From: Actinomycetota bacterium
GTDB taxonomy: Bacteria > Actinomycetota > Thermoleophilia > Solirubrobacterales > Solirubrobacteraceae
Length of the DNA stretch: 64,000 bases
Direction: 5' to 3'
Assembly: GCA_018268595.1 (NCBI GenBank)
Contig: JAFDWH010000009.1
Location: 124,001 to 188,000 of the forward strand
The notes under the pieces are model-generated. The model did no database searches. It worked only from the letters and a program-made list of their open reading frames with translations, and was not told where the DNA came from. A program made the translations under genes and the position numbers. This document shows positions 37,511 through 44,244 of the stretch, in pieces (the stretch's first letter is position 1; each line of letters opens with the position of its first letter).

Positions 37511-37646
37511 AACGAGGCCGGGCAGTTGGCGGTGGCGGCGCGGCGGTGGTCGTGCCACGGAGGTGGCCGCCCCACCGCGACGTTCGCCGGTCGGTCGCTT
37601 AACGACCCGACCCGCCTCTCGGCGGGCCGGGGAATGGCGTGGCACT

Positions 37647-37666
37647 GCAGCCAGTCGACACCTGTG
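37647..37666 (+). repeat. 20-nt inverted copy of the tRNA anticodon arm
   Basis: The plus-strand 20-mer starts GCAGCCAGTC and ends GACACCTGTG. It equals the minus-strand tRNA anticodon arm (37812-37831) except for one C in place of T. Because the two copies are inverted, the minus-strand RNA of this segment can pair with the tRNA anticodon arm along all 20 positions, the mismatch becoming a G-U pair. Confidence 0.85.
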
Positions 37667-37687
37667 TGATCAACGATAGCACGCCTC

Positions 37688-37755
37688 GACCGGGCGGCTA
37701 GGCACGGAGGTGACAAGCTCCTCGGCACCGAGTGCCTGCCCTTCGCCGCCCGGTC
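37688..37755 (-). ncRNA. Long hairpin / three-way junction downstream of the tRNA
   Basis: Arms GACCGGGCGGC and GCCGCCCGGTC form a perfect 11-bp stem closing a 46-nt interior. On the minus strand the interior can form two further hairpins: GGCAC with GTGCC around TCG, and GGAG with CTCC around eight bases. No T tract follows, so it is not a simple terminator. It begins nine bases after the encoded CCA of the tRNA. Confidence 0.6.
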
Positions 37756-37763
37756 AAGCGTTG

Positions 37764-37855
37764 TGGCGGAGGGCGTGGGAGTCGAACCCACCGGAAGGAT
37801 CGCTCCCGGAGCACAGGTGTCAACTGGCTGCGACGACCGCGCCGCTGCACCCTCC
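37764..37855 (-). tRNA. Selenocysteine-tRNA-like (allo-)tRNA with GAC anticodon
   Basis: This 92-nt gene with encoded CCA folds like tRNA-Sec. The acceptor stem is 8 bp (GGAGGGTG with CGCCCTCC, one T-G pair), and the D-arm has 6 bp and a 4-nt CGGT loop. The variable arm is 7 bp, CCGGGAG with CTTCCGG. The T-stem has 4 bp and a normal TTCGACT loop, and the discriminator is G73. The anticodon stem is CAG/CTG extended by AGC/GCT across one bulged T. Its 7-nt loop TTGACAC gives anticodon GAC, not the UCA of Sec. G8 instead of U8 favours the 8/4 form over a 7/5 serine-like tRNA. G73 and the long arm suggest charging by seryl-tRNA synthetase. Confidence 0.75.
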
Positions 37856-37946
37856 GTCCCCGAGAACGCTAAGCGGCAGCGTCCGAACGGTCTACACACT
37901 ACGTATGTGAATTGGCAAAGCCTTCGCGCAGCGCAATGACACTCAA

Positions 37947-43111: not shown

Positions 43112-44244
43112 GCGGCGGCGTCGCGACCTGGCTCGACGGGGTCGGCGTGTGCGTGGTGGGCGGCTCCGGCGGCGTCGGCAAGACGACCGCCTCGGCCGCG
43201 CTCGCGGCCGGCATGGCGGCGCGCGGGCTGAAGGTCGCGGTCGTGACGATCGACCCGGCGCAGCGGCTCGCGACCGCGCTCGGGCTCGACGAGCTCGACA
43301 ACCAGCCGCGGCGCATCGACCCGCAGCGCTTCGCCGGCGCCGGGCTGCCGCTCGGCGACGGCGAGCTGTGGGCGATGACGCTCGACCCCAAGCGCACCTT
43401 CGACGACCTGATCGCCCGCCTCTCGCCCGACGCGCAGACGCGCGAGCGGATCCTCGCCAACCGCGTCTACCGCGAGCTGTCGGACGCGGTCGCCGGCTCG
43501 CAGGAGTTCACCGCCGTCGCGAAGCTGCACGAGCTGGCGCAAGACGGTCGCTGGGACCTGCTCGTGCTCGACACGCCGCCGAGCCGCAACGCGCTCGACT
43601 TCCTCGACGCGCCCGACCGCCTGCGCGCCTTCTTCGAGGGGCGCGCCTTGCAGACGCTGCTGCGCGGCGGCGGCGCCGGCCTGCGCCTGCTCGGCCGCGG
43701 CACCGGGCTCGTGCTCGGCCTGCTCAGACGCGTCACGGGCGCCGAGCTGCTGAGCGACCTGTCCGACTTCTTCCGCCTGCTCGGCGCGCTGCTCGGCGGC
43801 TTCCGCGAGCGCGCCGAGCAGGTCGAGGCGCTGCTGCGCGCGCCCGGCACGACGTTCCTGCTCGTCACCTCGCCGGAGCGCGAGCCGATCGACGAGGCGC
43901 TGTTCTTCCAGCGGCGGCTGCGCGCGGCGGGCATGTCGCTGGCGGGCGCGATCGTCAACCGCATGCACGTCGACGAGCTGGGCGGCGAGGACGGCGCGCT
44001 CGACGGGCTGCCGGCGCGGCTGGAGCAGGCGGCCGGCCTCTCCCCCGCGCTGGCCGCGAGCGTCGCGGCGGCGTTCGCCGACGAACACGCGCTCGCGCGC
44101 CGCGACGCGGCGAACGTCGCGCACCTGCGCGAGCGGCTCGGCGGCGCGGTGCCGCTCGTCCGCGTCCCCCTGTTGGACGAGGACGTGCACGACGTCGCCG
44201 GCCTCGTGCGACTCGGCGCGCAGCTGTTCGCGCCACCGGCGTAG
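43108..44244 (+). CDS. ArsA/Get3-like ATPase, subunit 2 (BagB-like)
   Basis: This 378-residue partner ATPase has GGSGGVGKTT near residue 18, TIDPAQRLATALGL, and VLDTPPSRNALDFLDAP. Its middle region (about 185-235) is long and hydrophobic, with clusters of Leu and Gly, and could cover a lipid or protein client as in Get3. The start is GTG, overlapping the first subunit. The same two-gene arrangement is found in mycobacteria. Confidence 0.88.
   Translation: MSGGVATWLDGVGVCVVGGSGGVGKTTASAALAAGMAARGLKVAVVTIDPAQRLATALGLDELDNQPRRIDPQRFAGAGLPLGDGELWAMTLDPKRTFDDLIARLSPDAQTRERILANRVYRELSDAVAGSQEFTAVAKLHELAQDGRWDLLVLDTPPSRNALDFLDAPDRLRAFFEGRALQTLLRGGGAGLRLLGRGTGLVLGLLRRVTGAELLSDLSDFFRLLGALLGGFRERAEQVEALLRAPGTTFLLVTSPEREPIDEALFFQRRLRAAGMSLAGAIVNRMHVDELGGEDGALDGLPARLEQAAGLSPALAASVAAAFADEHALARRDAANVAHLRERLGGAVPLVRVPLLDEDVHDVAGLVRLGAQLFAPPA

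Follow-up and report, generated by a model that had tools for sequence, protein, structure and literature searches.

Mukai et al. reportedly described allo-tRNAs, tRNAs of the 8/4 and 9/3 types, in 2017, and to our knowledge no role has been established for them since that description. They have been named from Clostridia, Proteobacteria and Acidobacteria, not from the class of the organism considered here; the acidobacterial ones insert serine in E. coli, and the UAU class has been linked to transposons or toxin–antitoxin systems (PMC7609411). The word "antisense" has no occurrence in that review. The tRNA described below lies in the window, by which the whole stretch of 64,000 nucleotides that was analysed is meant, and shares with allo-tRNAs the 8/4 acceptor branch of 12 bp, a tRNA-Sec-like body, a long variable arm and a non-serine sense anticodon. 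The matches found here in Acidobacteria also fit the group and the phylum of the review. The known allo-tRNAs differ in having, as far as the review tells, no antisense RNA, and those of the UAU class were found without one here.

The tRNA-Sec (selC, RF01852) has the same 8-bp acceptor, 6-bp D-stem and long variable arm, but the window tRNA carries GAC in place of UCA and is built 8/4 and not 8/5. The proposed run of the Rfam tRNA-Sec model reached 42.5 bits (E 2e-6), short of the gathering cut-off, which is 47 bits.

In type I toxin–antitoxin systems and in plasmid copy control, antisense RNAs pair with a structured target RNA encoded adjacent to them and make a loop–loop contact in addition. 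Complementarity for both kinds of contact is seen again in the present loci, for the loop–loop contact in many of them, the target being a tRNA and not an mRNA or a primer. We know of no other case of this control principle, the silencing of a tRNA by an antisense RNA fitted to it. In the type VIII RNA–RNA toxin–antitoxin system CreTA, the toxin CreT sequesters a tRNA (PMC8501985). CreTA is similar in that candidate toxin and candidate antidote are both RNAs and translation is the target; here, however, the candidate toxin would be the tRNA itself, with a toxicity that we infer, and the candidate antidote would pair with it directly, whereas the antitoxin of CreTA is derived from a CRISPR repeat and guides a CRISPR effector, acting through Cascade. 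Nothing in the small RNAs described here suggests a repeat handle. If any RNA–RNA antagonist pair is counted as type VIII, the present module would rank as a new form within that type.

The literature search gave no account of an antisense partner; the paper of Mukai et al. (2017), which may hold relevant remarks, lay outside it. Because no system known to us or met in the literature searched matches and no Rfam family covers the pair, a tRNA with a dedicated, co-evolving antisense gene is counted as new. The comparison suggests a two-RNA module, in which a missense serine tRNA would be restrained by an antisense RNA of its own, as an RNA-only switch resembling a toxin–antitoxin system, and a probability of about 0.55 is given to this reading.

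Structure and identity of the tRNA

The first-pass annotation had placed on this locus a tRNA with the body plan of tRNA-Sec, a valine anticodon on a bulged stem, a three-way junction and an antisense copy of the anticodon arm. The positions of tRNA and antisense segment (Table 1) proved right, both on the minus strand, and the body plan was recovered in full: an 8-bp acceptor (GGAGGGTG/CGCCCTCC), a 6-bp D-stem with a CGGT loop, an anticodon stem with a 2-nt bulge (GCA-GC-CAG/CTG-TGC), a 7-bp variable arm, a 4-bp T-stem, G73 and the encoded CCA. The long variable arm, G73 and the GGA acceptor constitute, as far as the sequence tells, a serine-type identity combined with a non-serine anticodon, and the assignment to the 8/4 allo-tRNAs with a sense anticodon is supported by 28 relatives as well. 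Taken alone, and judged by these features, the window tRNA is another 8/4 allo-tRNA, a kind already known.

Table 1. Features of the tRNA and antisense RNA genes in the window
Feature	Position	Strand	Basis or remark
Predicted -10-like box of the tRNA gene, TAGCGT	37866..37871	(-)	TANNNT likewise placed in several relatives (TAGAGT, TAGATT, TAGCGT)
8/4 allo-tRNA with tRNA-Sec-like body, GAC, G73, encoded CCA	37764..37855	(-)	Rfam, R3 model, covariation
Anticodon GAC (valine GUC/GUU codons)	37819..37821	(-)	loop TTGACAC; relatives GAT, GAG, GAA, GCC
3' trailer with two hairpins closed by an 11-bp stem	37688..37755	(-)	fold; similar closed stem in long-form relatives, by eye
Trailer hairpin GAGG-AGCTTGTCA-CCTC	37707..37723	(-)	loop TGTCA (37711-37715) can pair with anticodon loop TGACA
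Predicted -10-like box of the antisense RNA gene, TATCGT	37673..37678	(-)	TANNNT in 24/25 loci of the class
Antisense segment, with which the small RNA is predicted to start	37647..37666	(-)	20 nt complementary to 37812-37831; co-evolution
Terminator-like hairpin (11 bp) then TCGTT, where the small RNA is predicted to end	37601..37631	(-)	small RNA fold; same position in relatives

The family model R3 scores the window tRNA at 79.2 bits (E 6e-15, within the window). ARAGORN makes no call for it, the Rfam scan of the whole 64-kb window returns no family above threshold, and a strict sigma-70 scan of the window misses the -10-like box of the tRNA gene. The only tRNA called by ARAGORN in the window is a tRNA-Asp of 93 nt (43230-43322, minus strand), which overlaps a long ATPase-like ORF and, having no Rfam support, is probably a false positive.

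A decayed selC had been named as a possible origin. The window tRNA is not simply that, because a canonical UCA tRNA-Sec gene exists elsewhere in the genome, on another contig beside a selB-like gene; as the organism's selC in use the window tRNA was rejected on the same ground.

Relatives in Thermoleophilia

Plain DNA similarity reached only two copies, both from the same genus, so that a covariance model was required; it was seeded with three same-genus copies and refined twice. With this model about 30 such tRNAs, belonging to several families, were found in Thermoleophilia (the window's class), ordinary tRNA-Ser and tRNA-Sec scoring lower; many of the genomes compared are draft or metagenome-assembled. 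In the phylum as sampled outside this class, the matches were tRNA-Ser/Sec wherever they were checked with ARAGORN. For 28 relatives and 28 pairs, 95% of the cells contain standard pairs and 22 of the pairs have changed on both sides, while the helices of 8 and 4 bp are paired in 98-99% of the cells. Because this covariation is better than all 500 shuffles and all slid controls, the molecule is considered a selected cloverleaf and not a pseudogene.

The anticodon arms vary strongly across the class; the anticodons are GAT (9), GAC (6), GAG (6), GCC (6) and GAA (2), 23 of the 29 being hydrophobic-codon anticodons. A restriction to hydrophobic codons was dropped as a general rule, as it fails in Acidobacteria. 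In three genes of the window GUC accounts for 71 of 123 valine codons, with AUC at 40/42, UUC at 34/34 and GGC at 100/141; the anticodons of the class would thus read heavily used codons, which is counted as a toxin-like sign.

Downstream of 25 of the 30 tRNAs there is a run of at least 11 nt antisense to the tRNA's own anticodon arm, and for 24 of them the run reaches at least 12 nt. The longest such run behind nine ordinary tRNA-Ser/Sec genes is 10 nt, and dinucleotide-shuffled downstream sequence gave a run of at least 12 nt in 20 of 600 cases, the real run of the window being 20 nt. Among the five loci of the class without a downstream run, G004 has a degenerate tRNA and an intact antisense RNA, and G091:C5 (locus L059) has its antisense gene upstream and divergent. 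No antisense RNA lies within about 1.5 kb of the intact-looking tRNAs of G081:C21 and of two of the three G186 copies (b and c), which possess the trailer element only. The trailers of these two copies of G186 (L092 and L093, G186:C2 b and c) contain hairpins apparently complementary to the variable loop (TTACCA/TGGTAA), together with a short anti-anticodon.

The antisense RNA as a probable separate gene

A repeat search recovered the 20-nt segment downstream of the tRNA, its complementarity to the anticodon arm being complete as had been claimed (19 of 20 positions Watson-Crick and one G-U). Several lines of comparison indicate that a small RNA distinct from the tRNA transcript most likely starts with this segment, which would then be more than a 3' part of that transcript. 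A TANNNT box stands 4-10 nt upstream of the antisense in 24 of the 25 loci of the class (background 1.8%), and a strict TTGACA/TATNAT promoter directly precedes it in 16 of 26 loci in Acidobacteria (background 2%). When the loci are aligned on the start of the antisense, a -10 box, the antisense itself, in most cases a G+C-rich hairpin, and a terminator-like hairpin follow one another. For the window copy the fold of the small RNA has a z-score of -3.5; simple promoter and terminator scans find nothing in this copy, the T-run after the hairpin at 37601..37631 being too weak.

The tRNA is broken and the antisense RNA intact in G004 and G026:C24b, and a second antisense gene follows in tandem in G436:C48 and L266. 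The second small RNA of G436:C48 (L094) comes after the first, has a -10 box, a hairpin and a terminator to itself, and differs from the first in the antisense (TGGGTGTCAGCCGGTC); no cognate tRNA was seen beside it. That of L266 (G916:C70), about 267 nt into the match, has the terminator loop TGACTA; the loop of the adjoining allo-tRNA needs TGGCTA, which makes this second small RNA an orphan antisense RNA.

Between the tRNA and the antisense the 11-bp stem (37755-37745/37698-37688) closes two hairpins, in agreement with the three-way junction first described, and the tRNA–antisense region folds with an MFE z-score of -4.7. Such a strong joint fold, an antisense located downstream on the same strand, a trailer anti-anticodon acting in cis and the lack of a clear terminator seen between tRNA and antisense are what purely cis self-masking would predict, i.e. 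a single transcript that folds back to cover its anticodon arm while no second RNA is made. This is nevertheless very improbable in view of the -10 boxes or complete promoters that immediately precede the antisense, the tandem second copies and the divergent upstream copy of L059, which can act only in trans. The original proposal of a self-inhibited tRNA therefore holds for one element, the trailer hairpin at 37707..37723, which can pair as a short cis anti-anticodon second to the main antisense; the latter is most likely part of another gene. In long-form loci the trailer matches its own anticodon over 5.5 nt on average, compared to 4.3 nt with other anticodons. The effect is modest, with weaker statistical backing than the main antisense has, and the case rests partly on position judged by eye.

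Locus L059 has the same layout as the others, and its small RNA is divergent from the tRNA, so that the DNA repeat is direct and not inverted; therefore only the complementarity of the RNAs is conserved. A mere DNA inverted repeat is excluded by this upstream, divergent small RNA. More generally, recombination between inverted repeats had been suggested as the origin of the arrangement, and a DNA-level cause (an inverted repeat, an integrase attachment site or a recombination scar, with the anticodon arm involved by chance) would agree with the inverted orientation of the repeat in most loci and with the frequent use of anticodon arms by integrases. Yet the fixed distance of the -10 boxes, the terminators, the loop–loop complementarity and the preference for G-U over A-C at the edges of the duplexes (89 vs 32) speak for RNA, as does the direct repeat of L059. 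The inverted repeat or att site was rejected on the G-U tolerance, the -10 boxes and the L059 copy, and is hardly credible.

Specific and co-evolving pairing

The duplex of each antisense with its own tRNA has a mean energy of -36.5 kcal/mol, against -21.6 kcal/mol for swapped partners, over 51 loci (permutation p < 5e-5, related loci counted as independent), and the own partner ranks first to third in 40 of the 51. At orthologous loci whose flanking genes are 78-92% identical, the anticodon has switched (GAA/GAG, GCG/GTC) and the antisense has switched to match. The search for compensatory changes proposed in the first-pass annotation was thus positive, and its adjacent element able to mask the anticodon gains support from this co-evolution. 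On these comparisons the antisense–tRNA pairing is well supported.

A second contact was recognized in many relatives, in which the hairpin loop of the small RNA and the variable loop of the tRNA from the same locus are complementary (G005 AGTCAC/GTGACT, G418 AATCAC/GTGATT, G194 AACCA/TGGTT, G399 ACCAC/GTGGT). Within the class this match gave p < 5e-5 in a permutation over 25 loci, with related loci counted as independent; in the window's own copy no loop–loop contact was found.

The sequence of events found in the small RNA (5' seed, hairpin, terminator) is also that of many regulatory sRNAs, and it could be imagined that the small RNA regulates other targets such as mRNAs, the tRNA-like RNA being a sponge or decoy. 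The antisense 20-mer, however, has no other site in its own genome at up to 2 mismatches (and one at 3). Moreover, the pairing extends into the D-stem strand and, in relatives, to the variable loop, so that the tRNA appears as a fitted partner, and a covarying cloverleaf with T-arm and CCA end would be needless for a decoy. A role of this kind is thus improbable.

Allo-tRNAs of Acidobacteria

Genomes of Acidobacteria were sampled via a 16S pattern and then via their order. Leaving the UAU/UUA class aside, the sample contained 26 allo-tRNAs, whose anticodons include GCG, GTC, GCC, GTA, GAT, TTC and GAG, and a downstream antisense run of 11-26 nt was present in all 26. In many of them the next hairpin, which is usually the terminator, has a loop complementary to the variable loop over up to 8 nt (permutation p < 5e-5, related loci counted as independent). 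In addition, a segment of 7-12 nt right after the tRNA is complementary to the anticodon stem (3' side) and variable arm; in ten UAU/UUA-type allo-tRNAs the complementarity at the same place amounts to 4-7 nt. For the UAU/UUA type in Acidobacteria no convincing antisense gene was found, the longest runs being 7-12 nt. The pairing is accordingly common to two phyla, and allo-tRNAs divide into two classes because the UAU/UUA type is devoid of the antisense.

The UAU/UUA allo-tRNAs (L239, L258, L261, L270, L275, L277, L278, L280, L283 and L284) form this separate class, without antisense or trailer complementarity. Three more matches to the model, of about 50 bits (L295, L296 and L297), came from other Acidobacteria of the phylum sample.

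Proposed mechanism

In the two-RNA model the product of the first gene would be a tRNA of the 8/4 type that joins serine-type features (the long variable arm, a GGA..UCC acceptor and G73) to a non-serine anticodon. Because of this combination the tRNA, once charged by SerRS, as acidobacterial allo-tRNAs are reported to be in E. coli (PMC7609411), would put serine at valine GUC/GUU codons. The second gene, with its own promoter and terminator, would produce a small RNA of about 65 nt, the 5' end of which is antisense to the anticodon arm and the hairpin loop of which, in many relatives, may also pair with the variable loop. Binding of the small RNA to the tRNA or its precursor would open the anticodon arm, and decoding would be blocked and/or the tRNA exposed to cleavage. 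The anti-anticodon in the 3' trailer may mask the anticodon until processing. On loss of the small RNA the mistranslating tRNA would be released.

For the tRNA structure, the specific co-evolving pairing and the separate promoter-like signals, the model draws on what comparison of the loci has shown at the level of sequence. Serylation, expression, direction of control and toxicity are the parts that we infer; the two adjacent RNA genes show co-varying complementarity at 51 loci and separate promoter-like signals, and an antagonism between them is proposed. An extra tRNA of some soil bacteria probably puts a wrong amino acid, serine, into proteins.

It is tempting to extend the model to an RNA-only addiction or defence module, with the missense serine tRNA as toxin and, as antidote, a trans-acting antisense RNA recognising two points (the anticodon arm and, in many relatives, the variable loop). 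Such a module, present in at least two phyla, would explain many enigmatic allo-tRNAs; this wider proposal is put forward tentatively, its chances being slightly below even. Broken tRNAs beside intact small RNAs, and second small RNAs in tandem, would be expected if a toxin and its antidote were involved. Strict lethality is argued against, since the tRNAs of G081:C21 and of G186, copies b and c, do without an antisense RNA.

If the proposal is true, a tRNA itself would be a regulated, possibly toxic, gene product. As many allo-tRNAs are accompanied by a partner RNA of their own, which changes together with the anticodon arm, their function becomes directly testable. The tRNA–small RNA pairs could also provide a switch for missense decoding that occurs in nature, along with a ready-made collection of tRNA–inhibitor pairs that are distinct from one another.

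Chromosomal context

The loci are found at conserved chromosomal places, beside hemC and other genes. The all-against-all comparison of the flanks revealed no shared protein partner beyond orthologous clusters and no mobile-element partner. Exact-pattern searches for viral copies, made in records other than those of plasmids and phages, gave only protein-coding coincidences in one case and nothing in another. The stable positions and the lack of a mobile partner in the flanks are unlike many addiction modules and count against a strict toxin.

The same observations lend themselves to the main rival of the toxin-antitoxin-like reading, namely regulated mistranslation, in which a missense tRNA would be beneficial under certain conditions (stress, growth phase) and the small RNA would set when and how much of it acts. 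This rival shares the RNA evidence; orthologous clusters at stable places, around which no mobile context turned up, the cis trailer as a further layer of control and three tRNAs without antisense RNA agree with it. On the other hand, the switches of amino acid at orthologous loci are hard to fit to a specific beneficial recoding, and broken tRNAs beside an intact antisense RNA fit an antidote better, so that a useful, regulated tRNA of this kind is judged unlikely, though a serious competitor.

In four Acidobacteria (L257, L279, L286 and L287) an allo-tRNA(GAG) and its antisense RNA lie directly upstream of an apparent hemC, the protein having been judged by eye.
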